DNA from: a virus
Strand: one strand, 5' to 3'
Length of the DNA stretch: 49,185 nucleotides
IMG/VR virus record: IMGVR_UViG_3300008266_000090
Location: 1-49,185 of that record
In this document: piece after piece, positions 1 through 33,500 of the stretch
How positions within the stretch are numbered: the stretch's first letter is position 1
Layout of the letters: each line of letters opens with the position of its first letter
Position numbers and translations under genes: made by a program
Notes under the pieces: model-generated
The model's input: only the letters and a program-made list of their open reading frames with translations
Database searches by the model: none
What the model was told of the DNA's origin: nothing

Positions 1-540
1 AGGTATCGTGCACGCGCGCGCGTCGGCGGCTCGAAATCGGCTTTTCCGCGAGGGAGGGGTATAACCGCGCGTGTATATGCGTGTACGCGTGCGCGTATAA
101 ACCAGCGTGCGGGCGCGCGTGTATAGTCCACCGCGAGCGTGTGCCTGTTCACCATTTTGCGCGGGCGGGCGCCTCGGAAACCGTGCGCGTGTGCGGTTCC
201 CGATGAGGGAAAGTGGCGCGGCGAGGTCAACTTGGTGCCTTGTGGACTCACCCCGCACCGCCCATTATCTTCCGCTCTCGCGTCCCGAAACGCGCGCGTC
301 CATGGTGTGCGTGTGCGTGTGTGTGGTGACCTTCGAGCGCCCCTGTTTCGCTCCTGATTGCCTCGTATATTTTTCACGGGTACCCGACCTGACTGTATGT
401 TTTTTCGGCGTATCCTTCGCTCTGAACGTATAGTGTTTGCAAGGGTTTGGTGTATTTTACCGCTCTGCAGCCCGCGTCAACACTCGGAAAATAAAAAAAG
501 TACCCGCATAAATTAAGGGTTTCAGAGTTTTTATGTAAAA
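1..540. other. GC-rich non-coding left end with alternating purine-pyrimidine tracts
   Basis: No credible gene is seen here. The sequence is rich in CG, CA/TG and GCGC steps, with alternating purine-pyrimidine runs at about 8-24, 66-100 and 303-330, which are the kind of sequence that can adopt Z-DNA under negative supercoiling. Composition differs strongly from the A/T-rich leaders and ordinary coding DNA to the right, and becomes A/T-rich from about 485. The one open frame of note, 107-433, encodes an Arg/Cys-rich protein with no start context like the true genes. The stretch may be a genome-end, origin or regulatory region, or a foreign or chimeric contig end; sequence alone does not decide. 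Confidence 0.5.
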
Positions 541-544
541 TTTA

Positions 545-584
545 TTTGGAAATTGAAAATAGTTGATAGCATATTTGCACCGTC
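545..584 (+). promoter_or_regulatory. Candidate Bacteroidota-type promoter before the structured RNA
   Basis: TTTG at 545-548 and CATATTTG at 570-577 are spaced by 21 nt. The downstream box differs by one base from the Bacteroidota -7 consensus TAnnTTTG, and the upstream box fits the -33 TTTG. Initiation would fall near 584, about 20 nt before the structured RNA. It is the only reasonable promoter seen ahead of the first plus-strand genes. Confidence 0.35.
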
Positions 585-605
585 AAACAACGACAACGTG
601 CTTTT

Positions 606-818
606 ACCCTCTCACGGTTAATCAAGAGGGTCAGCCCTGAGGCAACAAGGGGACGGGAGGCAGCCCGATAATACAGTCAACATGCTGTAGCAATTTAATT
701 AGCTAAACTGCCCTGAGCCGCACAAATAGTGCGGGAGCCGAGACAAGCGAATAGGCTAGCTGCACAGGGCAGCGCGCAACGGCGTAAGGTGGTTCGACTC
801 CACCGCTAGCTACTAACC
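606..818 (+). ncRNA. Large structured RNA leader with a tRNA-like T-arm
   Basis: About 210 nt folding into many stems directly before the first gene. Visible helices are ACCCTCT/AGAGGGT (606-612 with 625-631), CGGG/CCCG (654-657 with 664-667), TACAG/CTGTA (672-676 with 685-689), an 8-bp CTGCCCTG/CAGGGCAG (708-715 with 765-772) enclosing CCGCAC/GTGCGG (718-723 with 729-734), and a T-arm-like hairpin GGTGG-TTCGACT-CCACC (788-804). TAGCTA at 700-705 can pair with TAGCTA at 807-812, closing a three-way junction. Alternatively GGCTAGC at 754-760 pairs with 805-811 as a tRNA-like acceptor, but the piece is then only about 59 nt with no anticodon arm. The loop of the first hairpin carries GGTTA (616-620), complementary to TAACC (814-818) just before the start codon. 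I do not recognise the class; a riboswitch, ribozyme, processed leader or tRNA-like element are all possible. Confidence 0.55.
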
Positions 819-831
819 AAATTTCAATACC

Positions 832-1191
832 ATGTACAAGATTGCATTTCACCTAGCGCGCGGCGCTAACTTTCAAAAGTTTCAAATTCGTGACGCTAAC
901 AACGAAGCGACCTATATTGAGCCTAACGACTTCGACATTATCCTGCACAACTGCAAACTCAAAAATCAGAAGGGCGCGTCACTGCGTATATTCAAGGGCG
1001 GCGACAAGGCACGCTGCGCGTGGATAGAGTTCGAGCGCTACGAGGTCGTAGCTAAGGGTAACTACACGTCCGAGGTCGACGTGCGCTTCAATCCTAGGGT
1101 ATCACCTACGTGGAACGTCGGCGGCGTCGACAATCAGGACGACAGAACATTCGCTCAACTGCGTACCAACGGCCGCAAGGTCTACAAGTAA
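832..1191 (+). CDS. Hypothetical protein, first gene of the left arm
   Basis: A 119-residue soluble protein of mixed charge that I do not recognise. It has no signal peptide, membrane segment or obvious motif; the C-terminal part is rich in Arg, Asn and Asp. The ATG is preceded by ACTAACCAAATTTCAATACC, a leader resembling those placed downstream of the hammerhead ribozymes, and there is no Shine-Dalgarno sequence, as is usual in Bacteroidota. It lies immediately after the structured RNA at 606-818, so its expression may be controlled by that RNA. A GC hairpin follows the stop codon. Confidence 0.7.
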   Translation: MYKIAFHLARGANFQKFQIRDANNEATYIEPNDFDIILHNCKLKNQKGASLRIFKGGDKARCAWIEFERYEVVAKGNYTSEVDVRFNPRVSPTWNVGGVDNQDDRTFAQLRTNGRKVYK

Positions 1192-1198
1192 AAACACA

Positions 1199-1226
1199 GC
1201 CCCGCCACGAGAGTGAGCGGGGCTTT
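1199..1226 (+). terminator. Bulged GC hairpin, copy 1 of 6
   Basis: Stem GCCCCGC/GCGGGGC (1199-1205 with 1217-1223), inner stem CAC/GTG, loop GAGA and a single unpaired A1216 between the two stems, followed by TTTGG. It may act as an intrinsic terminator, but the U-tract is short and the hairpin recurs between several neighbouring genes with a conserved bulge and a GTA-containing motif just downstream. Confidence 0.55.
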
Positions 1227-1257
1227 GGCAGTATAACTAAATCAATTTTTTTTTATT

Positions 1258-1620
1258 ATGAAAGTAGAGTTAAACATTGGGCTTGGCAACAATCCCTTCG
1301 ACGCGTCAGGCGCGGCAATGCTAGCAGCTAACGTGCTAACTAAAAACGGTGCAACAGAACTTGTGTTCCGCACCTCACAGGGCACCTACGAAGAGCAGGC
1401 GGAGCCCAACGTCATCATGAAGTTTGAATGGGACGTCGAGGGCGCCAAAGCGTTCCACGCCATGTCATTTCAGGACCTGCTCGAGGCGCTCGCAGTCATC
1501 ATGACTCAAGAGTGTATCGCCTTCTACGTGCAGGAGTGGAGCGACGGCGGGCTAACGTACCGCACAGGTTGGGACGGCGACCGTCTAGACTTCTCGCTCG
1601 AGTACTTCGAGCGCTTCTAA
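1258..1620 (+). CDS. Hypothetical protein
   Basis: A 120-residue acidic soluble protein that I do not recognise. It is Trp- and Phe-rich near the end (EWSDGGLTYRTGWDGDR), which suggests a compact fold. The ATG at 1258 follows a run of nine T and TTATT, without Shine-Dalgarno pairing. The gene stands between two copies of the bulged GC hairpin (1199 and 1627), so it may form its own transcript unit. An overlapping reading frame at 1110-1331 is a shadow. Confidence 0.7.
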   Translation: MKVELNIGLGNNPFDASGAAMLAANVLTKNGATELVFRTSQGTYEEQAEPNVIMKFEWDVEGAKAFHAMSFQDLLEALAVIMTQECIAFYVQEWSDGGLTYRTGWDGDRLDFSLEYFERF

Positions 1621-1626
1621 TCTACA

Positions 1627-1656
1627 GCCCCGCCACTAGCAAGTGTGCGGGGCTTT
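1627..1656 (+). terminator. Bulged GC hairpin, copy 2 of 6
   Basis: GCCCCGC (1627-1633) pairs with GCGGGGC (1647-1653); inner stem CACT/AGTG, with T1646 bulged. TTTC follows. Directly after comes GTGTAACCAATTAAATAA, the same leader found downstream of the third hammerhead ribozyme, so this hairpin and the ribozymes occupy equivalent intergenic positions. Confidence 0.55.
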
Positions 1657-1685
1657 CTAGGTGTAACCAATTAAATAATTTTATC

Positions 1686-1976
1686 ATGAGCAACATGCTA
1701 TCAATTCACGACGAACTAAACAACTTCGTTGACTACTACAACTCAGATGACGAACTGCGCTTTAAAATGCGCTCAGCCGTTATCGACTACCTCCAAGAGG
1801 TGCGCGAAGAGCCGCCCACGGTTATATTCACGAAGATTTCGTACAAGGGCGACGACGTGTACGAGAAACACTTTGTGGGCAGCCTTGACCCGTGCAAAGA
1901 AAAGTTCCTGCTCACTGACCTGTCGGCCATGGTGCACAAGTACCAAGCGCTAGGCTGCGTGGTAGTCATCCGTTAA
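1686..1976 (+). CDS. Hypothetical protein with hammerhead-type leader
   Basis: A 96-residue soluble protein (starting MSNMLSIHDELNNF) that I do not recognise. The ATG at 1686 is chosen because it follows the leader TAACCAATTAAATAATTTTA that recurs before the genes at 2527, 3465 and 3706; the frame stays open upstream to 1428 but that part overlaps the previous gene. The N-terminal half is acidic and probably helical; the C-terminal end is hydrophobic (ALGCVVVIR). It is flanked by GC hairpins at 1627 and 1984. Confidence 0.65.
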   Translation: MSNMLSIHDELNNFVDYYNSDDELRFKMRSAVIDYLQEVREEPPTVIFTKISYKGDDVYEKHFVGSLDPCKEKFLLTDLSAMVHKYQALGCVVVIR

Positions 1977-1983
1977 TTAACAA

Positions 1984-2012
1984 GCCCCGCCGCTCACCGC
2001 GTGCGGGGTTTT
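1984..2012 (+). terminator. Bulged GC hairpin, copy 3 of 6
   Basis: CCCCGC (1985-1990) pairs with GCGGGG (2003-2008), G1984 can wobble with T2009, inner stem CGC/GCG with loop TCACC and bulged T2002, then TTTTG. Compared with copies 1, 2 and 5 the inner stem changes from CAC/GTG to CGC/GCG, a compensatory change. Confidence 0.55.
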
Positions 2013-2038
2013 GTCAGTAGAAACAAATACAAATCACA

Positions 2039-2173
2039 ATGAAGTTTACACTCCTTATCGCTTCACTAGCATGCATGGTGACAAGCGCAATCATCGCTGA
2101 CCTTTTCCTCTTCGGGATATCCGTAGTGTCAGTGTTCAGTTCAATCCTATTAACCTTTCAAAAATCAAAGTGA
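2039..2173 (+). CDS. Small membrane or secreted peptide
   Basis: A 44-residue hydrophobic peptide starting MKFTLLIASLACMVTSAI, with a hydrophobic first half typical of a signal or membrane segment and a second hydrophobic stretch (FLFGISVVSVFSSILL). It could be a two-helix inner-membrane peptide. Its TGA overlaps the ATG of the next gene (TGATG), implying translational coupling. It is preceded by hairpin copy 3 and an A-rich leader. Function is unknown; small phage membrane peptides can affect the host envelope, but nothing in the sequence proves that. Confidence 0.5.
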   Translation: MKFTLLIASLACMVTSAIIADLFLFGISVVSVFSSILLTFQKSK

Positions 2174-2469
2174 TGAAAAATCCATTGGAAAAGTACGCGC
2201 GACTTGACAGCGCAACAGGCAAGGGTATGAACGAGGGCTTCTGCGTCAACGACGGCGAGGCTTACTTTGCCGAGCGCGAAGACCTTATCGCTTACCTGAG
2301 AGCGCGCAATGTCGACGAGTACAACATACTCTCGGACGACTTCATACTCGACGAGGCTTACGAACTCGAAGACTACTACTACACCGAATGGGAGGTCGAA
2401 GATGAGGACACCTACTACATTGAGGTCAACGGCGAGTGGCTAGAGGTCATCAACGCAAAGGTTAACTGA
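2173..2469 (+). CDS. Hypothetical very acidic protein
   Basis: A 98-residue protein extremely rich in Asp, Glu and Tyr (for example EAYELEDYYYTEWEVEDED), with an estimated strongly negative charge. Such acidic small phage proteins are often DNA mimics or host-enzyme inhibitors, but this is inference only. The ATG at 2173 overlaps the stop of the previous gene; a GTG one codon earlier is the alternative. Its stop codon TGA (2467-2469) is part of the catalytic CTGATGA core of the hammerhead ribozyme at 2460-2509, so cleavage would leave the coding sequence intact while the ribozyme forms its 3' end. Confidence 0.65.
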   Translation: MKNPLEKYARLDSATGKGMNEGFCVNDGEAYFAEREDLIAYLRARNVDEYNILSDDFILDEAYELEDYYYTEWEVEDEDTYYIEVNGEWLEVINAKVN

Positions 2470-2509
2470 TGAGGCTTGAGTAGCCGAAACGCCGCGAGGC
2501 GTCTTAACC
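2460..2509 (+). ncRNA. Type I hammerhead self-cleaving ribozyme 1
   Basis: The parts appear in order: stem I 5' strand GGTTAA (2460-2465), core CTGATGA (2466-2472), stem II GGCT/AGCC (2473-2476 with 2482-2485) with loop TGAGT, core GAAA (2486-2489), stem III CGCC/GGCG with GNRA-type loop GCGA (2490-2501), A2489-T2502 pair, cleavage nucleotide C2503, and stem I 3' strand TTAACC (2504-2509). All conserved catalytic positions are present. Flanking RNA joins at stem I, so it is type I. Cleavage after C2503 leaves a 23-nt leader before the ATG at 2527. Confidence 0.9.
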
Positions 2510-2526
2510 AATCAATAAATTTTATC

Positions 2527-2997
2527 ATGAAAGCAAACGCAACACGCATGACTGCTGAGGCAGTTAAACAACACAGCAAACGTGGGTACAATCCTCCACT
2601 ATGGGAAGAGACAGTTGACCGCTACCTGAAGTATGACAAGGTCGAGTTCTACCTGCTAGACCGCGACAAGCACAAGTCATACGATGAGTTCTTTGTCATC
2701 TACACCTTGCCTAGCGGCTTGAGGCTCATGGGCAGCCTTTCCTACAGTTCATCACTGACAAGCGCAGGCTTTTACGAGCTAAACTTGTTAGACCACGACA
2801 TGGACGCGCTTATCGAGGATGTGCTAGCAGGCAAGCCCGTAGACATGAAGGACTACCTGTTCGACACTGACAGGGTGCTGCTGCAATCCCGCACAGACGT
2901 GACCTATAAAACGACGCCCGAGGCGCGTGACTACATGACTGAAGGCAGCACTAGGTTCGGCTTCATATTCACCAAGCAATACATTCACACAGCCTAG
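2527..2997 (+). CDS. Hypothetical protein downstream of ribozyme 1
   Basis: A 156-residue soluble protein starting MKANATRMTAEAVKQH that I do not recognise. The central part (RYLKYDKVEFYLLDRDKH) is charged and probably alternates strands and helices. The ATG at 2527 lies exactly 23 nt after the predicted ribozyme cleavage site and follows the shared AACCAATCAATAAATTTTA leader; the frame is open further upstream through the ribozyme, but that extension is not credible. It is followed by hairpin copy 4. Confidence 0.7.
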   Translation: MKANATRMTAEAVKQHSKRGYNPPLWEETVDRYLKYDKVEFYLLDRDKHKSYDEFFVIYTLPSGLRLMGSLSYSSSLTSAGFYELNLLDHDMDALIEDVLAGKPVDMKDYLFDTDRVLLQSRTDVTYKTTPEARDYMTEGSTRFGFIFTKQYIHTA

Positions 2998-3005
2998 TAC
3001 AACAA

Positions 3006-3034
3006 GCCCCGCCGCGTAAAGCGTGCGGGGATTT
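3006..3034 (+). terminator. Bulged GC hairpin, copy 4 of 6
   Basis: GCCCCGC (3006-3012), inner stem CGC/GCG with loop GTAAA, bulged T3024, GCGGGG (3025-3030), then ATTTG. A short A/C-rich leader with GGGTACAAATC leads into the ATG at 3056. Confidence 0.55.
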
Positions 3035-3055
3035 GTGGGTACAAATCAAAATACA

Positions 3056-3241
3056 ATGACAAAAATCATCATGCTCTTTTGCCTGTTCACCGGAAAGGTT
3101 CAGCAGGTCGACAACCTCTACACCGTGCACGCCGGCACCGGCACCTACGAGTATGCCTGCGAGGGCGAGGTACTCCATTGGATAGAGACAGGGACATTCA
3201 ACTACGACGACAGCCTGTGCGGCTGCGGCGAACTTAACTAA
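3056..3241 (+). CDS. Small Cys-containing hypothetical protein
   Basis: A 61-residue protein starting MTKIIMLFCLFTGKVQQ. Cysteines at the end (DDSLCGCGEL) and in the middle could bind a metal, but the spacing matches no family I know. The ATG at 3056 is preceded by the A-rich leader AAATCAAAATACA. A run of ATCAA pentamers (3241-3260) separates it from the lipoprotein gene that follows. Function is unknown. Confidence 0.55.
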   Translation: MTKIIMLFCLFTGKVQQVDNLYTVHAGTGTYEYACEGEVLHWIETGTFNYDDSLCGCGELN

Positions 3242-3261
3242 TCAAATCAAATCAAATCACC

Positions 3262-3390
3262 ATGAAAAAAGTAATCATTTTAGCAATCATCATCATCGCG
3301 CTCGCGTCATGCAGCACCAAGAAACTTACACACTCACACTACACCAAGGGGGTAACGCACGGGCAGGACGGCTGCGCGTGGCACCGATAG
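3262..3390 (+). CDS. Small putative lipoprotein
   Basis: A 42-residue peptide starting MKKVIILAIIIIALASCSTK. It has a positively charged N-terminus, a hydrophobic core and a lipobox LASC with the cysteine at residue 17, so it would be cleaved by signal peptidase II and lipidated, leaving a mature part of about 26 residues. Small phage lipoproteins include outer-membrane spanins and superinfection-exclusion proteins; which applies here is not visible. The stop codon TAG shares its G with the first base of hammerhead ribozyme 2. Confidence 0.65.
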   Translation: MKKVIILAIIIIALASCSTKKLTHSHYTKGVTHGQDGCAWHR

Positions 3391-3447
3391 GTTAACTGAT
3401 GAGGTCTGAGTGACCGAAACCTAGGGCTCGCGCTCTAGGTCTTAACC
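3390..3447 (+). ncRNA. Type I hammerhead self-cleaving ribozyme 2
   Basis: Stem I GGTTAA (3390-3395) with TTAACC (3442-3447); core CTGATGA (3396-3402); stem II GGTC/GACC (3403-3406 with 3412-3415) with loop TGAGT; core GAAA (3416-3419); a longer stem III of nine pairs (CCTAGGGC side 3420-3427) with loop TCGC; cleavage nucleotide C3441. Stems II and III differ from ribozyme 1 but remain paired, while the core and loop II are identical. Cleavage leaves 23 nt before the ATG at 3465. Confidence 0.9.
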
Positions 3448-3464
3448 AAATAAATAATTTTATC

Positions 3465-3638
3465 ATGACAACTTACTTCATCTGCAACACAGACAGCTAC
3501 GGGCAAAGAACAGGCACCTACCGCTCCATTCAAATAAGCGAAGCCGATATAGAAACTAATCACCATGGATGGAAATTCTACAACGGCATGTTTCTTTACG
3601 AGAGCGAGCACCAAGTCATACTAGCCTGCCAAGATTAA
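3465..3638 (+). CDS. Hypothetical protein flanked by two ribozymes
   Basis: A 57-residue protein starting MTTYFICNTDSYGQRTG, aromatic-rich and without membrane segment; not recognised. It is the only gene between hammerhead ribozymes 2 and 3: cleavage at C3441 and C3682 would release a 241-nt RNA holding the 23-nt leader, this gene and the upstream half of ribozyme 3. The stop codon TAA ends one base before stem I of ribozyme 3. Whether the excised RNA stays linear or is ligated is unknown. Confidence 0.65.
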   Translation: MTTYFICNTDSYGQRTGTYRSIQISEADIETNHHGWKFYNGMFLYESEHQVILACQD

Positions 3639-3688
3639 GGTTAACTGATGAGTCCTGAATGGACGAAACGTCGTGAGACGTCTTAACC
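3639..3688 (+). ncRNA. Type I hammerhead self-cleaving ribozyme 3
   Basis: Stem I GGTTAA (3639-3644) with TTAACC (3683-3688); core CTGATGA (3645-3651); stem II GTCC/GGAC (3652-3655 with 3661-3664) with loop TGAAT; core GAAA (3665-3668); stem III CGTC/GACG with GNRA-type loop GTGA; cleavage nucleotide C3682. Cleavage again leaves 23 nt before the next ATG (3706). Confidence 0.9.
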
Positions 3689-3705
3689 AATTAAATAATT
3701 TTATC

Positions 3706-4080
3706 ATGAGCAAAACAACGCGCGCTATCGGACAGCGCAATTCATTCACCAAGGCTTCAGAGCCTGCACCATTCAAAGTTAACCGCTTCGAGGTAGCTAG
3801 ACTAGTCAAAGCACAAACCGACGCGATAACAAGCGGCGTATGGGACTACCCAATGGATTATAAATTCGCCAACAGCGGCGAGTTATGGGACGCAGTCAAC
3901 GCAGGCAAGAGCGTGCAAAAGTTCGTGCGAGAGTGCATGATTGAGTTCGGCACGATTACAGGCGCCCTGCTAGGGAGTCAATTCAACCACGTGTCGCACA
4001 GCAGCAAGCACGCCATTCGCAAGGGCGTCATGAGAGCACAGCAGTACAAACAAATCATCGAACAATTAAAAACAAAGTAA
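3706..4080 (+). CDS. Hypothetical protein downstream of ribozyme 3
   Basis: A 124-residue basic protein starting MSKTTRAIGQRNSFTKASEP. The C-terminal half (SSKHAIRKGVMRAQQYKQII) is Lys/Arg-rich and helical, which would suit nucleic-acid binding, but no known domain is recognised. The ATG at 3706 follows the shared leader and lies 23 nt after the ribozyme 3 cleavage site; the frame is open slightly upstream through the ribozyme. The next gene starts only three bases after its stop. Confidence 0.7.
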   Translation: MSKTTRAIGQRNSFTKASEPAPFKVNRFEVARLVKAQTDAITSGVWDYPMDYKFANSGELWDAVNAGKSVQKFVRECMIEFGTITGALLGSQFNHVSHSSKHAIRKGVMRAQQYKQIIEQLKTK

Positions 4081-4082
4081 CC

Positions 4083-4451
4083 ATGGGATTCTTCAGTTGG
4101 AAAACATCGGACACGGACAAGTCCATCAGCAACGCATACAGCAAGAGAGGTGCGTTCAAAGTTTATATGATAACACCTACAGACAGGTACCTAGAACAGG
4201 AGTACGAGGGCTACGGGGTATTCGGTGGCAAGGACTACTACGAGCTAGTGTACGAGCTAAACAAGTGCAGGTACCATGGTCCTGAGGACGTGGAAGACAG
4301 GTCCAAGGGGATAAGGATAGCCTTCGAAAAAAACAACAAGGGCAATCTAGTCCTGCCAAAGTTTGCCGAGAGCGAAGACGCTTCGTGGTTGGAGCTACCT
4401 GATAGCAGGATATGCGAACAGCAAGGATACTTTTACCAATCAATAATATAA
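4083..4451 (+). CDS. Conserved phage protein of the MGFFSW type
   Basis: A 122-residue protein beginning MGFFSWKTSDTDKSISNAYS. Proteins with this N-terminus (MGFFSxxTxDTxxSI) are widespread in phages of many hosts and have no established function, as far as I know. It is Tyr-rich (YEGYGVFGGKDYYELVYEL) and soluble. It probably is co-transcribed with the preceding gene (gap of two bases) and is followed by hairpin copy 5. Family recognition is from memory of the N-terminal motif. Confidence 0.75.
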   Translation: MGFFSWKTSDTDKSISNAYSKRGAFKVYMITPTDRYLEQEYEGYGVFGGKDYYELVYELNKCRYHGPEDVEDRSKGIRIAFEKNNKGNLVLPKFAESEDASWLELPDSRICEQQGYFYQSII

Positions 4452-4462
4452 AACAGGACCAA

Positions 4463-4492
4463 GCCCCGCCACTGCAAAGTGCGCGGGGATTT
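4463..4492 (+). terminator. Bulged GC hairpin, copy 5 of 6
   Basis: GCCCCGC (4463-4469), inner stem CACT/AGTG capped by GCAA, bulged C4482, GCGGGG (4483-4488), then ATTTGG and GCGGTAGAAAC. It separates the gene ending at 4451 from the one starting at 4526. Confidence 0.55.
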
Positions 4493-4525
4493 GGCGGTAG
4501 AAACAATTTAAAAAACAAATACAAT

Positions 4526-4900
4526 ATGGGACGTTCAGTATCAACACTACACGGCGCTAGATTATCATCGTATATCAGCGTCGACGACGAGGCTAACCAC
4601 GAATGGATGGTCGAGGACCTGCAGGAGGTAGGTCAGGAGTTAAAACTAACTAGCTGCCAACGATGGGACGGGCGCGAGGTTCAAATTATCATGTCTGGAC
4701 ATGGCGTAGAGGTCGGTATCTCGGAGTACTGCGGGATAGTATCGATCGGGATACGAACCGAGGAGGAGTCTGATCCGATCGGCGACAAGTGGATAGACAA
4801 GAACGGGCAAGAGATTATCAAAGCCTTTCACCATCACGGCACGCCGATACGCAGCGTCGGAACATTCAGCAACGGGGAAACTATTTACGAAAAAAAATAA
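4526..4900 (+). CDS. Hypothetical protein
   Basis: A 124-residue acidic soluble protein starting MGRSVSTLHGARLSSYISVD, not recognised. The ATG at 4526 follows the A-rich leader after hairpin copy 5; the frame extends upstream through the hairpin, which is unlikely to be translated. A patch of histidines (AFHHHGTP) sits near the C-terminus. The next gene follows after seven bases. Confidence 0.65.
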   Translation: MGRSVSTLHGARLSSYISVDDEANHEWMVEDLQEVGQELKLTSCQRWDGREVQIIMSGHGVEVGISEYCGIVSIGIRTEEESDPIGDKWIDKNGQEIIKAFHHHGTPIRSVGTFSNGETIYEKK

Positions 4901-4907
4901 TAGCACA

Positions 4908-5075
4908 ATGAACATTAAAGTTTATTTCGAGACGCAATCACCCGCATACGCGGAGCACGTCGCAACATTTCACGACAGCGGGACCTACACGGCTTGCTTT
5001 CCTGCACTAGACAAACTAAGAGAAGCGAACGGTTTTGATATCATCACCGAGAGCGTAGAGGAGGACGAGTCATGA
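4908..5075 (+). CDS. Small hypothetical protein
   Basis: A 55-residue acidic protein starting MNIKVYFETQSPAYAEHVAT, not recognised. It lies between two longer genes in the same orientation, and its TGA overlaps the ATG of the next gene (ATGA), which argues for a real, translationally coupled gene. No signal peptide or membrane segment. Confidence 0.55.
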   Translation: MNIKVYFETQSPAYAEHVATFHDSGTYTACFPALDKLREANGFDIITESVEEDES

Positions 5076-5425
5076 GCGGAAGAAAGTTTTACAACAGCGG
5101 CAGGATTGCCAACGTGTTCAGTCATCAGGACAGGCAGCGCCTGCTACACCACCACTCGATGGTCTACAAGATTTTTGTGGAGCTAAGCGAGGCGGGCTAC
5201 TGGATGAAGCCGTCACTCATCGCTGAGTTTGAGGCGTGGAGCGACGAGGTCGAGATACGCATGGGCAAGAAGCCCGACAGCGACTACAGCTACAAGGTGC
5301 TAGAAAACTGCGCGGACTACGGCCCACTCACGCTGGCCGAGTACTTCGAAACCTGTGCAAGGCACACGCTTGCTTTGTGCGAGAGCCTTGGGGCGGAGTA
5401 CAACGACCACCTGCCACGGATTTGA
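5072..5425 (+). CDS. Hypothetical protein
   Basis: A 117-residue, mostly helical soluble protein starting MSGRKFYNSGRIANVFSHQD, not recognised. It starts within the ATGA overlap with the preceding gene. Cys, His and Trp are scattered without a metal-binding pattern. The diverged hairpin copy 6 follows its stop. Confidence 0.65.
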   Translation: MSGRKFYNSGRIANVFSHQDRQRLLHHHSMVYKIFVELSEAGYWMKPSLIAEFEAWSDEVEIRMGKKPDSDYSYKVLENCADYGPLTLAEYFETCARHTLALCESLGAEYNDHLPRI

Positions 5426-5447
5426 TATTAGTTTGGTTACACCATCG

Positions 5448-5476
5448 CCTCGCCATCCTTCGGGAGGCGGGGTTTT
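5448..5476 (+). terminator. Diverged GC hairpin, copy 6 of 6
   Basis: CCTCGCC (5448-5454) pairs with GGCGGGG (5466-5472) including one wobble, with a short inner CC/GG stem, then TTTTGG and GTGGTAGAAAG. It shares the downstream GGTAGAAA motif with copies 3 and 5, although the stem sequence has changed. Confidence 0.55.
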
Positions 5477-5511
5477 GGTGGTAGAAAGTCATAATAAAAC
5501 ATAAACACAAC

Positions 5512-5679
5512 ATGAAAGTAAGGACACGCACTATTTTAGCGGCGACATTCACCGCTTACTGTATCGCCATGGCGGTTACAATGAATGAGGCACACGAGTA
5601 CAGCAAGACCAAGCGGTGCTTGGAAGAGTACGGCGAGGGCGACGTAGGGATGTGCATGTGCTATGAAAACTGTAAATAA
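5512..5679 (+). CDS. Small membrane-anchored or secreted Cys-rich peptide
   Basis: A 55-residue peptide with a basic N-terminus (MKVRTRTILAATFTAYCIAM) leading into a hydrophobic segment, then a charged tail ending in MCMCYENC with three cysteines. It reads as a signal-anchored or exported peptide. It follows hairpin copy 6 and an A-rich leader. Not recognised. Confidence 0.5.
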   Translation: MKVRTRTILAATFTAYCIAMAVTMNEAHEYSKTKRCLEEYGEGDVGMCMCYENCK

Positions 5680-5697
5680 TTTAAACCAAATAAAAAG

Positions 5698-6027
5698 ATG
5701 AAGAGATACTTCACATACCAAAAACAGCGCATGATATTCGAGAGCGCCATGACCCACGTCATAATCGAGGAGACCACCAATCAGACTCAGTCACTGAAGC
5801 TAAGAAAGGGGGTGCACCTCTCGGACTGGATGATGACCAAGGAAGAGGGCGAGGCGAGGCTCGAAGAGATTGCCAAGTACGAGTGCGACGGGGCCACCAT
5901 AGAAGGCGGCGCCGTCTCCAACGAGGGCAGCAGGTACCAACTGCACAGCATAGAGAACCTGAGCGAGATTGAACTACTCAAGATGTCGCGCGTGCTACCA
6001 CTAACATTCAAAGTATATCAACCATAA
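5698..6027 (+). CDS. Hypothetical protein
   Basis: A 109-residue soluble protein starting MKRYFTYQKQRMIFESAMTH, with a charged, helical middle (MMTKEEGEARLEEIAKYE). Not recognised. The ATG follows AACCAAATAAAAAG, similar to other leaders of this block, and the next gene begins four bases after the stop. Confidence 0.65.
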   Translation: MKRYFTYQKQRMIFESAMTHVIIEETTNQTQSLKLRKGVHLSDWMMTKEEGEARLEEIAKYECDGATIEGGAVSNEGSRYQLHSIENLSEIELLKMSRVLPLTFKVYQP

Positions 6028-6031
6028 AGCA

Positions 6032-6268
6032 ATGAACATGAAACTAAAAGGGTATCAGCCTATGGCCATGAAGATTGGCAACGGCGAGGTCGGGCTAGAC
6101 GACAACGACTTCATCGAGTGGAGAAATTTCTACAGGAACAAACTGAGCGGGATGTTTGTCGACTTCATGGTCGACGAGTTAGAGGCGGCCATGGAGATGG
6201 GCGAGGACGGCTTCACGCTCATGATATATAACCAATACAAGGGGCTACTCACCCCTGCACTAAACTAA
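6032..6268 (+). CDS. Small hypothetical protein
   Basis: A 78-residue acidic protein starting MNMKLKGYQPMAMKIGNGEV, not recognised. It is mostly helical (FVDFMVDELEAAMEMGED). Close spacing to the genes on either side indicates one operon. Confidence 0.6.
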   Translation: MNMKLKGYQPMAMKIGNGEVGLDDNDFIEWRNFYRNKLSGMFVDFMVDELEAAMEMGEDGFTLMIYNQYKGLLTPALN

Positions 6269-6274
6269 CACAGC

Positions 6275-6454
6275 ATGCAACAGGTAATCTCAAAGCAGGG
6301 GACGTTCCGCAAGGATAACTCCATCACCGTGTTCGAGGGAGACGTCACGGTGAAAAGCGACGACAGGTACACCACCATATCGGGCACGCACTACAGGCAC
6401 AACTACGATTGGGGTAACCATTGGACAGTAAACGGAGGCAGGGTATGGAAATAG
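6275..6454 (+). CDS. Small hypothetical protein, predicted beta-rich
   Basis: A 59-residue protein starting MQQVISKQGTFRKDNSITVF with repeated alternation of hydrophobic and polar residues, so probably beta-rich. Not recognised. Its end overlaps the next start by ten bases (6445-6454). Confidence 0.5.
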   Translation: MQQVISKQGTFRKDNSITVFEGDVTVKSDDRYTTISGTHYRHNYDWGNHWTVNGGRVWK

Positions 6455-6621
6455 ACAACCTAATACTCATCACGTTCCTGTCCTATTGGGGCAGCCTAAT
6501 CCTGTTGGCTAGTCAATGGTCAAGAAGGAAACCAATCACGAGGGTATCACTCATACTCCTATCAATCGCGCTCGCGTGGTTGACAGGGTACCTAGCATGG
6601 AGTTCGATATGCGCTGGATGA
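6445..6621 (+). CDS. Small two-helix membrane protein
   Basis: A 58-residue protein starting MEIDNLILITFLSYWGSLIL. Two hydrophobic segments, about residues 5-23 and 34-55, flank a basic turn (SRRKPITR), giving a membrane hairpin. The ATG at 6445 lies inside the end of the preceding gene; a TTG further upstream is less likely. Its TGA overlaps the ATG of the next membrane gene. Confidence 0.5.
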   Translation: MEIDNLILITFLSYWGSLILLASQWSRRKPITRVSLILLSIALAWLTGYLAWSSICAG

Positions 6622-6773
6622 CATGGACAATATCTATAGCCGTCTCAGTCAGCGTGCTGTGCTGGTACTATAGCAGGGGTGGGAGGGGAGTCTTCTACCT
6701 GATAGCGGGACTCATAATGCTCAGCATCGTGAGGCCGCACGTGAACAGGGCAACCGCACGCAAGGTGTGGTAG
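6618..6773 (+). CDS. Small membrane protein
   Basis: A 51-residue protein starting MTWTISIAVSVSVLCWYYSR with two hydrophobic segments around residues 3-17 and 24-38, and a basic C-terminus. The start at 6618 is chosen because it gives the ATGA overlap with the preceding membrane gene; in-frame ATGs at 6597 and 6609 are alternatives. The pair may act together in the inner membrane. Last gene of the first left-arm block. Confidence 0.45.
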   Translation: MTWTISIAVSVSVLCWYYSRGGRGVFYLIAGLIMLSIVRPHVNRATARKVW

Positions 6774-6971
6774 CTTATCTAGGCGCATAAACTAGCGCGT
6801 GATTGATAACATCTATAAGAATTTAGGTATCGATTGAAATTATTTATAAGACTTTCGATCCCTAGTTCGTATAAAAAATGTAACTTTCAGCACGCGTTAG
6901 TTAGCGCACACTAAACCGTTTAAGTATATAAATTTCAAGCAGTTAATAAAATTAAAAACAAAACAAAACAG
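6774..6971. promoter_or_regulatory. Intergenic control region with nested inverted repeats
   Basis: About 200 A/T-rich bases between the two plus-strand blocks. An outer inverted repeat pairs ACTAGCGCGTG (6791-6801) with CACGCGTTAGT (6891-6901), 10 of 11 matching; an inner one pairs TAGGTATCGA (6824-6833) with TCGATCCCTA (6855-6864), 9 of 10 matching, around an A/T-rich centre. TAACTTTC at 6881-6888 is one base from the -7 consensus. This probably holds the promoter and operator of the 6972 operon, and could be a replication origin. Confidence 0.45.
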
Positions 6972-7376
6972 ATGTACAAGATACCAACAACATGTCTCGG
7001 GTGGATAGACCTCCTGCCCGCAGAGGTAAGAGAGCAGGCCATAAAGAACGCCAGCCCGAGGTCATTACAGGACGACTGCAACAGCATGTACGACGCATTG
7101 GCAATCTCATTCGTGTGGAAGAACACGCCCGAGGGCGAGGAGTACTGGAAGGATATGGCTGACAGTCACACACCAAACTTCCTCTCGTTCATAGTGCAGT
7201 TCAGGGACTGTATCAACCTGTCGGAGGTGGCTAGGTTCGGCGGCATAAAGCGCCAGACATTGGAGGACGCGCTGAGGGATGAGGACAAGCACACACCTGC
7301 CATGAACCAGCGCATCATGACGATGTTCACTCAAATGCAGAGGGCACTCAACGAGATAAACAGCGATGAGGAGTAG
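6972..7376 (+). CDS. Hypothetical protein, possible helix-turn-helix
   Basis: A 134-residue, largely helical protein. Residues around 82-105 (NLSEVARFGGIKRQTLEDAL) resemble a helix-turn-helix as in Cro/C1-type regulators, where SEVARFGGI and KRQTLEDAL would be the two helices. It is the first gene after the intergenic region with inverted repeats, a position expected for a regulator acting on a nearby operator. The assignment is inference; no full domain is recognised. It overlaps the next gene by eleven bases. Confidence 0.55.
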   Translation: MYKIPTTCLGWIDLLPAEVREQAIKNASPRSLQDDCNSMYDALAISFVWKNTPEGEEYWKDMADSHTPNFLSFIVQFRDCINLSEVARFGGIKRQTLEDALRDEDKHTPAMNQRIMTMFTQMQRALNEINSDEE

Positions 7377-7991: not shown

Positions 7992-8624
7992 ATGAATTTA
8001 CTACAGAAACTACAGGCCATCCAGTCAAAGGTTAGGGCGGTGGCAAAGGACAACGACACGCAGAGTCGTTTCAACCCGAACGGATTTAAGTACGTGAGCG
8101 GGGACAAAATCATCGGCGTCATCCGCCCGCTGATGGACGAGTACAAGGTGATCCTGAAGAGCGAGGTGCTGGCGATAAACAATTCAGTCCAGCAGTACAC
8201 CACGAGCAAGGGCGCGACAAAGAACGAGGTTCTAACCAACATCTCGATGAAGATGACTTGGATAGACACCGAGTCAGGAGAGCGCGAGGAGTGCATGTGG
8301 GGTGCCAACGGGATGAACGACTGGGACAAGGGGTTCGGAAGCGCCGTGACCTACGGTATCAGGTACTTCATACTCAAGTCATTCCTAGTTAGCACGGACA
8401 GCGACGACGTGGACGCTATCGTTAGGGACTACGAGGATCAGGAACGCGCCCCGTCTAACGCAGCGCCAGCGCCAGAATCCGACAAGCCTTGGATTGAGGA
8501 CAACGCAGAGGCCATGGCCAAGGTCGAGGGCTTCATGTCCAGCGGCGGATCAATCGACGACGTGTACAAGAAGTACCGAATGAAGAAGGTTACAAAGGAA
8601 CGTCTAATTAAACTAAGCAAATAA
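7992..8624 (+). CDS. erf: ERF-family single-strand annealing protein
   Basis: A 210-residue protein with the ERF-superfamily layout: N-terminal helix with LQKLQAIQSKVRAVAKDN, then SRFNPNGFKYVSGDKIIGVI, a beta-strand region (EVLTNISMKMTWIDTESGE), and the GFGSAVTYGIRYFILKSFLV segment typical of the family. ERF proteins anneal complementary single strands during phage recombination or circularisation. The last 70 residues are a linker rich in Ala/Pro followed by a small helical tail (DDVYKKYRMKKVTKERLIKL), possibly a partner-binding domain. The stop overlaps the next start by one base. Gene name is given for the family. Confidence 0.85.
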   Translation: MNLLQKLQAIQSKVRAVAKDNDTQSRFNPNGFKYVSGDKIIGVIRPLMDEYKVILKSEVLAINNSVQQYTTSKGATKNEVLTNISMKMTWIDTESGEREECMWGANGMNDWDKGFGSAVTYGIRYFILKSFLVSTDSDDVDAIVRDYEDQERAPSNAAPAPESDKPWIEDNAEAMAKVEGFMSSGGSIDDVYKKYRMKKVTKERLIKLSK

Positions 8625-11347: not shown

Positions 11348-11938
11348 TCTTTCCGCTATAAACTCTCGCACCACATACGAGGTAGCAGTCTTGGGCTGCT
11401 CCACGTCTGGTGACTTCTTAACCTTAACAACCGATCGGCCACCTTCTGGACAGAAGTAGTCGGCCATCCTCTCCTTAGTAACCCTCCTGCCTTGGTTCCC
11501 CAAGTTTGTCTTGAAGGTCTCGTAGCCAGACATGTCCACGCCTAGCGCGTACATCCGCATCTCAACGTCGGCTACCGTGTTACCCATCTCGTTGATTATA
11601 CTATACCTATTGACGCCGTCGTGGCTGGACACCGCAAGTTCTGGGGTGCTATCCTCCACGCTCACGTCCATGCTCACGCCGTACTGTTTAGCAGCAAACA
11701 TGAGCGCCACAATCTCCGCGTGGATCGTCGGCACCAGACCCTTCTGGTCCATGCCAGCGTACTGACCACGGAACACCGGGCTATACTGACCTGTTCGCTT
11801 GTCGTAAAGCCTTACGGCTACCTCAATAATTGAATTGTAGCTTGTCCTGTCTACGCGCTCTACTATATAGCCCGCTTCCGAGAACAGGCCGTGAACTTTT
11901 AGCAGGTAGGACTGCTCTGTCTTTAACGTTACATTCAT
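11345..11938 (-). CDS. Hypothetical protein, end of the late block
   Basis: A 197-residue protein starting MNVTLKTEQSYLLKVHGLFS, not recognised. It seems soluble, with mixed strands and helices (RQYAGMDQKGLVPTIHAEIV region is well formed) and a Lys-rich tail. Its first 116 bases overlap the 3' end of the endolysin gene in another frame; here the frame of this gene looks the more protein-like. As the last late gene it is in the lysis cassette, but a lysis role is not shown. Confidence 0.6.
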   Translation of the reverse strand: MNVTLKTEQSYLLKVHGLFSEAGYIVERVDRTSYNSIIEVAVRLYDKRTGQYSPVFRGQYAGMDQKGLVPTIHAEIVALMFAAKQYGVSMDVSVEDSTPELAVSSHDGVNRYSIINEMGNTVADVEMRMYALGVDMSGYETFKTNLGNQGRRVTKERMADYFCPEGGRSVVKVKKSPDVEQPKTATSYVVREFIAER

Positions 11939-12512
11939 TTCCTATGTGTTTATTGTATCTGCTGACCTGATATATTGAGGACTGTAGCCTCTTGCGTTTC
12001 ATCACGCTGTCGCCTGTGTTACTATCCCTTGACCCACCGTCGTTGGTGTTCCCTTCTATGGTGTCGACCCACTTGTCTCCCCATGACTCTACAAAACCAG
12101 TGTGCCCGATCCTGTTTAGGTTCGGGTAGTACAGCGTGAACACGTCACCAGATTTTGGGGTGATAGTATTTGAGAGGGGCTTCCTCCTGTCGTAGATCCT
12201 GTTGATTGCTGTGGCAGACGGTGACCATGCCGTTACCTTGTGCTCTATATTGCACGCGTCCAGTATGAACTTGACGAACGCCGCACACCATGGGGCTGGG
12301 GTTGTTATGCCCGCGTTCAGCAGGTACTCTGCCACTCGCTTGCCTCTGTTGTTGCCGCCCACCTCGCGCACGCCCACCTCCTTGTTAGCCTTCTCGACTA
12401 CACAAGGGCAAGCATAGCCAGTAGAAATCCAAGCAAATACAACGACAAGAATAGCGCATACTTTCTTGGAAACCTTGGGGAACCTGATACCCAGTCCTTG
12501 TACTCTTTCCAT
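11823..12512 (-). CDS. Exported CHAP/NlpC-like endolysin
   Basis: A 229-residue protein with a hydrophobic N-terminal segment (KVCAILVVVFAWISTGYA, about 17-34) and then a cysteine amidase/peptidase-like domain: APWCAAFVKFIL (catalytic Cys about residue 75), GDVFTLYYPN, RIGHTGFVES (catalytic His) and TIEGNTNDGGSRDSNTGD, the pattern of CHAP-type phage lysins of Bacteroidota. It would cut peptidoglycan, reaching the periplasm by signal or signal-anchor export. The last 36 or so residues (after VSRYNKHIGNEC) overlap the next gene in another frame and look unlike protein, so a frameshift or shorter natural end is possible. The start overlaps the end of the upstream membrane gene by 115 bases. Confidence 0.7.
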   Translation of the reverse strand: MERVQGLGIRFPKVSKKVCAILVVVFAWISTGYACPCVVEKANKEVGVREVGGNNRGKRVAEYLLNAGITTPAPWCAAFVKFILDACNIEHKVTAWSPSATAINRIYDRRKPLSNTITPKSGDVFTLYYPNLNRIGHTGFVESWGDKWVDTIEGNTNDGGSRDSNTGDSVMKRKRLQSSIYQVSRYNKHIGNECNVKDRAVLPAKSSRPVLGSGLYSRARRQDKLQFNY

Positions 12513-30531: not shown

Positions 30532-33500
30532 TTACTCTATAGCCTCGCTCGGGACGTAGTTAACCTTCGCGCTGATCACCACAATCTTATCTGCCGGTGA
30601 ATCAAAGCTCACGGTGTGCGCCGCTGTGTAGCCACGCATCTCCTTGCCGTTCAGTCTAGCCAAGTCCACCGTGGCTAGGTAAGGTATGTCAACGTTCTCG
30701 TCAAGCTCGTCCCTCTGGTACTCAGCCCACACACCGTTCTCGTACTTCTCAAACAGTGAGGTGTCTATTGTGGTGGCCATCGCCGCATAGTTCAATCCCT
30801 CGGTGACGTTCACGTATACCGTAGGAACGGTGTTGGTTCTCAAGCCCAAGGCTAGTGGCCTCTTGACTAGCAACGGCGAGTGGTTGAACACGAACTCAAA
30901 GTCGAACGGGTACTGTACACCAAAGAAGTTACACTCCGTGCCCTCGTTGCACACATACAGCTGGGCGTCGTTGCCGAACTCTACAGCATACCCGCCAAGG
31001 TTCTCCGTCCAGTCTGGCACGTACTGTAGAAATGATTTCCATCTGCCCTCGCCAAAATTAAACGCGGCACCGTATGAAGACTCGCCGTCTGTTATCCAAA
31101 ACTTATACTCGGCGTTGAACTCGTCCACCCCGCTAACGGAATCCCATGCGGATGGTCCGCCATTCAGCGCAATAAAGTTAGTCAAGGATGTGGTGTACTT
31201 GTTGAACTTGAGCTTCTCGCTTGAGATGTCCTGCTGCCCATTGTTCAAAGACATAACAAACATACCAGAGTTGTAGTCGTAGTAGAACAGCTGACCCTCC
31301 ACCACGCGCACGCTGCCCGGGTGTACCGTTCCGTATAAGCTATCGTAAGGGTTGACACCACCGAATGTTCGGTCGGTGTAGCTAACGTTCTGTCCGCCGT
31401 CACCGCCAACAGCCATGGTGCGCTGTATGTAAACGCTCGTCTCCTTCCTTGCCTGTATGACCTTGAGGGTGTAGCCGTTTATGATAATACGATTGATCGA
31501 TCCAAACTCCTCGCTCATGTCCTGCTTGTTCAGCAGGTTGAAGTCAAAGCTGCACAGGTTGTTGTTGTTGCTGTTGTCTATGTAAGCGCCGCCGTGTATG
31601 ATAGATGCTGTAAGCTCGCGTCTTCTGAACAAGGTATCCTGTATACCTATCCTGCCGTAGTCACTCCAGTTACTGATGTAGTAGTCGGATACGCTAGGGT
31701 CCTCGACGTAGTACCTCCATAGCCAGAAGTTATCTGGTAGCTTGTTGGATATCCTTGGTCGGACATACACGTCACCGAAGTTTAATTCTAAAGTAGCAGG
31801 CGTGTCGTCCGTCTGGTTCGTGTTAAACGTGTAGGTGAGGTAAGTCAATCCGGGTGACGGGTCAGCTACGGTTATAGTACTCTCGTCGGCTACAGGGTCG
31901 TAAGAAACAAATGAAACCTGAACAATAAATGAAAACCCTACCGCCGGCGTGAACGTGATCGTGTAGTCGCTACCCGAATCGGTAAGCACCGACAGGTCAC
32001 CGCCCACGACAAAATCAAAACCTCCGGGCGCTGGGCTAGAGATAACATCCTTAGCCGCGTAGCTGTCCCCCTCGTGCTTCCTATTCGCCGTGTACGGGTT
32101 GAGGATGTTCTTGATCATCCCGATCTCAAACCAAGGCTCGTTGATCGCATCCTTTCTAGGGGTGTATATCTCTATCAAGAATCCGCCAGACTCGTCTACC
32201 AGAGGCACGTAGTCAAACTTTGTTACCCATATAGCCTCGGCACCATCCTGACCGCCAGCGGCGTCATAAGACTGCACCTCTACCTCTATATAGTTGCTAA
32301 CATATGCAGGCAAGGTATCCACAAATGAGGCGGACACGGTAAGGAATCTTACAATATCCCCCTTCTGCGGGGTGTGGTTGACGTTCGCTTGAAACGCGCT
32401 CTCGTAATAATTATCAAGGGTCAGCTTCCACAGCTGAGGGTTCTCAACATCAAGCTCTAGTATAGTAACGGTACGGTACTGAAAATTCAAAACCTCCGTG
32501 GTCTTCCTAGCTAGTATCTGGTAGTACCTAGCCCAGCTTGGAGGTTCATGCTTCACGTACATACGAGGGGATACCCAGTACGGTGAGTGAGTGTCGGCAA
32601 ATTTATCTGTAATTTCTATCCCATCCTGTGATGGGTATGGGACGTACACGCTTGCCGTGTCAGAAGTTAAAACACCCCCGCTTCTCATTCCCCTGTCGTA
32701 GTACTGTATACCGAACTCGTGAGTCGCGCCCTTCTTCAAAGACTGGTACGGCTTTGTAAGAATTAAAGTTTGACTCTGTCTTTGCCCCATAGCCTGAAGC
32801 CAGACCGTTGCGTTTGGTGCGCCAGTCGGCTCAATATTGCCAGTCAATAAACTGATTGCACATGGATATCCTGCGCTTGTTAGTGCAGTAACTAAGTCAT
32901 CCCCTAAATTCGCTAATGTTCCGGCAGCTACATCTGCGGCTGTTATAACAAGATTAATATTAAAAAAAGTACCCGCGCTAATTGTAGGATCGTTCTGAAA
33001 TTGAAAGGAAATAATATCACCCTCTTGATAAGGAAACGTTGTAAACACAGAATCAAAATCAACTTCTTGTATAACTCCAAATTGATTTTTAACATCATAA
33101 AAAATTATTCCACTCTGTGCAGTCGCGTTCCTAATCTCATGCAGCACCCTAGCCCCGTCTAAGTCAATCTCGATTGGATCATAACCCTCAACGAAATTAC
33201 CGTAGCACAGCTGCTTGGTCGGGAGTAGCTCCATAAAGCCGGACACCTGAGGCACGCGGTCATAGTTTCTTAAGCCCTCGGCGAGGGTGATGGGTATGAT
33301 AGCGTTGAGTCCGTTGAAGACAACCTCATAAGTCGTGTCATCTGATATACCCTCGAGCGCCTTGTCAAGCTCGGTGAACATTCCAAACTGTCCGATGTTA
33401 CCAGAGCGGACAGCGACCCTCAACTTTTTTACAAGGAAGCTACCTGTCGGTACCTCAAGCGTTATGATGTTCTCTGCAAGGGAGTCCAAGTAGTTACGAC

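Follow-up and report, generated by a model that had tools for sequence, protein, structure and literature searches.

What are three putative self-cleaving RNA motifs doing between the small genes of a phage? The locus lies in a virus record of 49185 bases (IMG/VR record IMGVR_UViG_3300008266_000090), which was analysed whole and is referred to here as the window. Our answer, which we hold with fair confidence, is that they are type I hammerhead ribozymes that cut themselves and so mark boundaries between genes at the RNA level in the early operon of a Bacteroidota phage. The original prediction had placed type I hammerheads at 2460-2509, 3390-3447 and 3639-3688, and its coordinates, core motifs and stem II sequences were all confirmed. 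The ribozymes and the leaders they are predicted to leave are as follows (bit scores are from the family model described below).

2460..2509, + strand: hammerhead ribozyme 1 (type I), predicted cut after C2503, 72.2 bits; stem I GGTTAA/TTAACC, core CTGATGA, stem II GGCT/AGCC, GAAA, stem III with a GCGA loop
2504..2526, + strand: predicted 23-nucleotide (nt) 5' leader (5'-OH) after cut 1, A/T-rich, with a spacing typical of the family
3390..3447, + strand: hammerhead ribozyme 2 (type I), predicted cut after C3441, 62.8 bits; stem I as in ribozyme 1, stem II GGTC/GACC, stem III longer, with a stem-loop of 20 nt
3442..3464, + strand: predicted 23-nt 5' leader after cut 2
3639..3688, + strand: hammerhead ribozyme 3 (type I), predicted cut after C3682, 71.6 bits; stem I as in ribozyme 1, stem II GTCC/GGAC, stem III with a GTGA loop
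3683..3705, + strand: predicted 23-nt 5' leader after cut 3

The elements follow the same order in all three copies: stem I, CTGATGA, stem II with a 5-nt loop, GAAA, the stem III hairpin, T, C, and stem I again. Because stem I is the open helix, with stems II and III closed by loops, the ribozymes are type I. The hammerhead core is defined by CUGANGA, GAAA, H at the cleavage site and an A15.1-U16.1 pair. Every one of these features is present in the three window copies, whose core bases are intact (3/3) and surrounded by all three helices. Stem III had been described as different in sequence and length in each copy; the sequences are not disputed, but the lengths do not all differ, as the stem-loop has 12 nt in both ribozymes 1 and 3 and 20 nt in ribozyme 2. 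The predicted cut lies 23 nt from the next ATG at each of the three ribozymes. No Shine-Dalgarno sequence was seen by eye in the leader at 2504..2526.

The pattern CTGATGA-N(3,30)-CGAAA occurs three times in the window, compared with a mean of 0.12 in 100 shuffles. A hammerhead fold was predicted for ribozymes 1, 2 and 3 with z scores of -2.22, -3.00 and -2.72, and 6/200, 2/200 and 3/200 shuffles, respectively, folded equally well. A family covariance model was then used to search the window with filters off; its 40 members include the three window copies. The model found exactly the three ribozymes and no fourth hammerhead in the window, the next match scoring 11.6 bits (E 1.2). The original prediction had proposed the Rfam type I model as a check; at gathering cut-offs it reported 0/3 window ribozymes. 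In an E-value search of positions 1-7000 with Rfam, ribozyme 3 matched Hammerhead_1 (RF00163) with 29.5 bits (E 3.6e-4), ribozyme 2 matched HH9 with 17.2 bits (cut-off 52), and ribozyme 1 was unlisted. The best window copy is thus below the RF00163 gathering cut-off of 34, and the hammerhead assignment is based on the core and the fold. Across 11 sources, Rfam gathering scores caught 0 copies and the family model 41, although the model was built partly from the same copies. Rfam gathering cut-offs can miss an entire ribozyme set.

Judged by sequence and predicted fold, the window ribozymes belong to a large phage family, for which the counts given here are minimum values. Two scans of viral contigs were made. 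The first (set A) fixed TTAA in stem I and gave at least 119 stretches. The second (set B) placed no condition on stem I but required U at loop II positions 1 and 5 and A at position 3, and gave at least 120 stretches. Ninety-nine loci were new to set B, and complete hammerheads were found at 113/116 of their pattern places; in one of the three misses (L172) the contig end cuts the motif. Among the 145 distinct copies in these 99 loci, stem I is exactly 6 base pairs (bp) long in 138/145, with many different sequences, and A flanks it on both sides in 131/145. The cleavage-site base is C in 136/145 and A in 9/145. Up to 9 copies are found in one locus (L223, 5.8 kb), and 6 each in L035, L083 and L148. 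L223 (JAAGZR010000219.1), a 5.8-kb contig with all 9 hammerheads on one strand, comes from a metagenome-assembled genome (MAG) labelled Aliivibrio and is perhaps a phage contig instead of host DNA. The genome collection yielded 7 stretches, 3 of them in named Bacteroidota isolates (two Mucilaginibacter, one Aquimarina) and 4 in MAG contigs. In L142, L151, L152 and L198 several hammerheads have long pyrimidine-rich stem III stretches (e.g. CTTTTCTTTCCCCC) that are repeated between copies.

The scan demanded at least 4 pairs in stem I and at least 3 each in stems II and III, and kept the best-scoring layout, so percentages for the inner pairs are partly built in. In 226 sources (2.0 Mb) the real core motifs gave 304 folds and six scrambled versions gave 0; the 304 is a biased rate, as most of the 226 sources were retrieved by pattern. 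Three pairs were not forced by the scan, namely the two outermost pairs of stem I and pair four of stem II. Among 293 distinct copies (identical copies and copies with a stem-loop II other than 13 nt were removed), 291, 292 and 292 have a standard pair at these positions, compared with shuffled means of 276.7, 129.1 and 185.5, and the pairs vary in kind among the copies. In an alignment of 40 copies picked because they satisfied the scan, with 37 relatives selected for at least 6 and 4 pairs and for C at the cut, the covariation score was 0.762, versus 0.155 for shuffled and at most 0.084 for slid alignments. Nothing was found in favour of chance resemblance; it is opposed by the pattern count against shuffles, the zero for scrambled cores, the unforced pairs and the family-model scores, and its probability is negligible.

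Covariation had been said to support all three ribozymes. Three copies in one genome are thin ground for that claim; the real support comes from relatives. At the ribozyme 2 position in the related stretch L088, stem II is GTCC/GGAC instead of the GGTC/GACC of the window, changed on both sides. At the ribozyme 3 position in L042, where 340/376 alignment columns are identical, stem II is GTCT/AGAC instead of GTCC/GGAC. The ribozyme 1 position in L045 has a longer and mostly different stem III that is still paired. One stem III pair is broken in ribozyme 2 of L088, which counts against conservation of the paired stems. At the ribozyme 1 position C replaces T at core position 7 in L088, and A replaces C at the cleavage site in both L045 and L088, a change that the H of the core definition allows.

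The conserved elements could also have lost catalytic activity, their sole remaining role being to give structured 3' ends or to aid gene shuffling as short repeats. Ribozyme neighbours are indeed frequently rearranged between relatives. Yet the stems vary freely while the cleavage site remains C or A (136 + 9 of 145), and the core bases are kept at three homologous positions in relatives, the variable position 7 excepted; we therefore consider loss of catalysis very improbable. Constancy of the core is not independent evidence on this point, because core bases belonged to the search patterns.

Natural hammerheads are described as needing contacts between loop II and stem I for high activity (PMC6155905; PMC3088659). 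Since the set B pattern fixes U, A and U in loop II, the loop signature was read from set A, whose pattern leaves loop II free. There the loop is UNANU in 107/149 copies. The fifth base of loop II and the base 3' of stem I are coupled in the same 149 copies: U-A 120, A-U 12, U-U 0 and A-A 4, with G at position 5 in 13/149. The A-U rows come from 10 loci, and several of these rows also have 7 bp in stem I and 5 bp in stem II. For the 293 copies the counts are U-A 251, A-U 20, U-U 0, A-A 4 and G 18, in a mixture of sets A and B in which U is partly forced by the pattern. Fisher tests gave 8.6e-27 for the 293 copies and 3.6e-14 for set A alone; the rows are related, so these values do not count independent events. 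Coupling is weaker on the 40-row alignment (34/40 paired, 2 changed on both sides). It may reflect a direct pair or a coordinated change. Under either reading the evolution of loop II is linked to that of the stem I end, and the covariation is consistent with a possible tertiary contact between loop II and the stem I periphery.

The position of the ribozymes relative to genes was examined next to the following open reading frames (ORFs); the genes of the block are our own selection from the ORF list.

2173..2469, + strand: gene upstream of ribozyme 1, 98 amino acids, with its TGA stop inside the core CTGATGA
2527..2997, + strand: gene downstream of ribozyme 1, 156 amino acids
3262..3390, + strand: gene upstream of ribozyme 2, 42 amino acids, whose TAG stop shares base 3390 with stem I
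3465..3638, + strand: gene between ribozymes 2 and 3, 57 amino acids, whose TAA stop abuts ribozyme 3
3706..4080, + strand: gene downstream of ribozyme 3, 124 amino acids

A similar arrangement is seen for most copies of the family. Copies with at least 150 bases on both sides were judged after removal of duplicates, 166 from set A and 135 from set B. In 165/166 and 128/135 copies the 80 nt that follow the cut contain the ATG start of an ORF, with a median cut-to-ATG distance of 23 nt in set A and 27 nt in set B. A nearby stop that ends a same-strand ORF upstream is present for 161/166 and 133/135. Both features are found together at 160/166 and 126/135 copies, compared with 1131/4650 random same-strand positions in the set B loci. 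With narrower limits (stop at -10 to +12, ATG no more than 30 nt away) 126/166, 77/135 and 130/4650 qualify. Multiple copies that flank single genes on the coding strand are also present. The intergenic position originally proposed is therefore supported, and the layout is consistent with processing sites between small genes.

The following model is drawn from known hammerhead chemistry. Each ribozyme would fold once transcribed and cut after the C at position 17, dividing the early polycistronic transcript into shorter mRNAs. The upstream message would keep a structured 3' end with a 2',3'-cyclic phosphate, and the next would begin with a 5'-OH and the 23-nt leader. Such ends could affect expression, stability or translation.

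Close spacing of stops and ribozymes raises the alternative that cleavage is regulated. A ribosome terminating at the overlapping upstream stop would cover stem I and delay the cut, coupling it to upstream translation. Where a stop was found, it lies at -10 to +12 of stem I in 141/161 (set A) and 110/133 (set B) copies, often inside stem I or the core, as with the 2173..2469 gene, whose stop is the TGA of CTGATGA. However, dense packing of phage genes would produce the same overlap, and the motif brings stops of its own, TAA in many stem I sequences (forced by the set A pattern) and TGA in the core. We regard regulated cleavage as unlikely, and plain cutting at gene boundaries remains the preferred reading.

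Shared stem I sequences suggest another alternative, in which two ribozymes release the gene-length RNA between them, and the reverse reaction or a host ligase then closes it into a circle or splices it. The 3465..3638 gene lies between ribozymes with identical stem I, so the released RNA could restore ribozyme 3 through its own 5' end. Within loci, stem I differs by at most 1 base in 35/69 pairs, versus about 11% between loci, although some loci are near-duplicates and were counted twice. Common ancestry would explain this likeness. At least 2 stem I differences are found in 34/69 within-locus pairs, and likewise in 21 of the 38 pairs whose stems II and III have diverged; identity of stem I is therefore not enforced. 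Spliced or circular products were not detected in the experiments reported by Perreault et al. (PMC3088659). Circular-RNA cassettes formed through a shared stem I were accordingly dropped as an explanation of the locus, and the idea is kept as a minor and quite improbable rival to gene boundaries.

Other long gaps in the block contain GC-rich hairpins, its second kind of gene spacer.

1198..1236, + strand: GC-rich terminator-like hairpin with a GTRNAA tail
1647, 2003, 3025, 4483 and 5467 (positions of GCGGGG): five further copies of the hairpin

Six hairpins with GTRNAA were found, compared with 0.50 expected. Each (window 1217, 1647, 2003, 3025, 4483 and 5467) is followed by NTTTNNNNGTRNAA, and the combination also occurs in L088, L076 and L045. 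Hairpin and NTTTNNNNGTRNAA are conserved beyond the apparent needs of a plain terminator; together they are perhaps a phage promoter, an antiterminator target or a processing signal. There are 15 gaps between the 16 genes from 832 to 6027. All gaps longer than 50 nt (9/9) contain one spacer, 3 a ribozyme and 6 a hairpin; the other six, which are overlaps or at most 20 nt long, contain neither.

Exchange between the two spacers is seen in relatives. The spacer before a window gene was compared with that before its homolog in L088, L076, L045 or L042; 21 of the comparisons come from one analysis and that of gene 2039 in L088 from another. Hairpin and ribozyme are swapped in 4/22. A ribozyme replaces the window hairpin before genes 1258 and 3056 in L076 and before gene 2039 in L088, and a hairpin replaces the window ribozyme before gene 3465 in L076. 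The ribozymes would thus separate genes as the hairpins do in the other long gaps, and could replace them in evolution; that the two do the same job is an inference.

Several results weigh against this interpretation. The spacer is unchanged in 14/22 comparisons, so swapping occurs but is not the rule. A ribozyme stands opposite no spacer in 2/22 (genes 3706 and 4083, both L088), as does a hairpin (gene 2039 in L076, gene 3262 in L088). The hairpins look weak as intrinsic terminators, with short U runs and 1/6 listed on the + strand. Finally, the ribozyme is often missing beside homologs of its neighbours. For 358 ribozymes, 289 upstream and 310 downstream genes were tested, using homologs of 30-90% identity only. 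Where the partner gene was not adjacent, the ribozyme was absent on that side in 105/180 and 142/233 homologs, respectively. As most of these homologs of flanking genes lack a ribozyme, no gene strictly requires the boundary.

The other side of the same test agrees with the boundary reading. With the partner not adjacent, 75/180 homologs of upstream genes are followed by a ribozyme and 91/233 homologs of downstream genes are preceded by one; with the partner adjacent, the ribozyme is kept in 18/29 and 33/45. For control genes, chosen to lie over 100 nt away from a ribozyme, the counts were 29/1675 and 29/1764. Ribozymes are therefore well above background and tied to neither side, as expected of a boundary device. 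The idea of the ribozyme as a 3' element of the upstream gene was dropped, since no asymmetry is seen over all loci (75/180 vs 91/233). Among close relatives a ribozyme does follow the same upstream gene, namely 3262 (L088, L045, L042), 3465 (L042, L076) and 2173 (L088, L045). After gene 1258, in contrast, the window has a hairpin where L088 and L076 have a ribozyme.

A broader version of the model can be offered tentatively, and we think it rather less probable than not. In a large phage lineage the ribozymes would be a general substitute for transcript-end hairpins, the two being interchangeable cassettes that yield single-gene 5'-OH mRNAs with uniform leaders, possibly timed by the ribosome at the stop codon, and the 5'-OH ends would escape host decay initiated at a 5'-phosphate.

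The host group and the place of the block in the genome were examined through the remaining genes. A protein of 1226 amino acids (30532-34212, minus strand) matches 85 phage records, including 68 Flavobacterium and 15 Cellulophaga phages, all below 60% identity, in support of the earlier assignment to a Bacteroidota-type phage. Among the large minus-strand proteins scanned, 3/7 match virion structural families. An ERF-type recombinase is encoded at 7992-8624 on the ribozyme strand. Because the recombinase shares the strand of the ribozymes and the structural matches lie on the minus strand, the ribozymes probably sit in the early block. BLAST of the first 12.5 kb of the window against named phages gave no match. 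Positions 225-2800 are identical to all 2576 available bases of L031, and in its source, a 63,973-base IMG/VR contig, the pattern search finds the same three ribozymes. The 3262..3390 gene has a lipoprotein-like N-terminus by eye and weakly matches two PHROGs entries of unknown function (E 0.008-0.009). No PHROGs match was found for the genes at 2173..2469, 2527..2997, 3465..3638 and 3706..4080.

Three other features of the window were noted. Positions 1-520 are GC-rich, with alternating CG/GT runs and no clear gene, and 1-596 is 81% identical to L088. At 750-815, directly before gene 832, there is by eye a tRNA-like 3' half that is largely conserved in L088, with a T arm (GGTGG-TTCGACT-CCACC) and an acceptor-like stem (GGCTAGC/GCTAGCT). 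ARAGORN found no tRNA there, and the best Rfam match was tRNA-Sec (14.8 bits, E 3); the element could be a degenerate or unusual tRNA-like RNA. A CHAP-domain protein, a possible lysin, is encoded at 11823-12512 on the minus strand.

Seven named phage records were searched with the family model. Four of the positives had been chosen from short-ribozyme BLAST matches, and NC_055852 was chosen by its structural protein. The model was positive in 5/7: Flavobacterium phage elemoA_7-9A, Pelagibacter phages Jormungand and HTVC131P, Agrobacterium phage OLIVR1 and uncultured phage MedDCM-OCT-S35-C6. It found no copy in Cellulophaga phages phi13:2 and phi38:1. The elemoA_7-9A ribozyme (NC_055852, 17286-17349, minus strand) lies between gp67 and gp69 and, judged by eye, has a single mismatch in stem III. 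The pattern occurs once more in that record, at 19089, but the family model does not find this place. The annotated gp68, a 35-amino-acid ORF (NC_055852 17275-17382; L236 1776-1883), lies antisense over the hammerhead and is probably an over-annotation. The Jormungand ribozyme (L232, MT375528 36723-39753) sits among ardA, MarR and integrase genes, a setting that resembles the Agrobacterium triple set (ardA, marR, integrase) of PMC3088659. Because the subfamily occurs in cultured phages, its function can be tested directly by an infection experiment.

The layout had originally been put forward as undescribed. This claim fails, because Perreault et al. 2011 (PMC3088659) already describe clustered hammerheads that flank single genes or short blocks in prophages. 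The present analysis adds the signature of the subfamily, the failure of Rfam cut-offs to detect it, its exchange with hairpins and its cultured carriers: a common phage subfamily with a near-fixed site that swaps with hairpin spacers before some homologous genes. Among the open-access papers listed for hammerhead or self-cleaving ribozymes, none describes this subfamily in its title or at the start of its abstract, and an earlier description elsewhere is possible.

Phage genomes are reported to carry hammerheads of types I, II and III (PMC7761336). According to PMC10085705, bacterial hammerheads and twisters are enriched near Mu-like phage genes. Like RF00163, the window family has type I topology, the same core and, in the consensus, a 6-bp stem I; unlike RF00163, its loop II departs from the consensus, and 11 sources lack a copy at gathering score. 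HHphage of haloviruses HF1/HF2, as described in PMC3088659, is likewise a hammerhead variant in an early region, 13 nt before a start codon, with a mapped transcript 5' end at most 3 nt from the cut. It differs in being a structural variant from an archaeal virus, for which that account mentions no cluster. Theta ribozymes of gut phages (PMC10879173) are also self-cleaving RNAs proposed to process transcripts of Caudoviricetes, some of them of Bacteroidota, but they have a hepatitis delta virus-like fold and a postulated role in processing tRNA 3' trailers. The closest parallel is with the prophage clusters of PMC3088659, in which several neighbouring hammerheads flank single phage genes. Hairpin-spacer exchange, seen here, was not met in that account, in which about 40% of the hammerheads surveyed are said to use a stem I-II pseudoknot; in the present family loop II is short and mostly UNANU, and a single flank base covaries with it. 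The tandem sets tested there were from Clostridium, Azorhizobium and Agrobacterium, compared with a Bacteroidota-type phage here. They are reported to cleave in vitro (three sets) and in E. coli (one triple set), and the role proposed for them is the cutting of long transcripts into shorter mRNAs.

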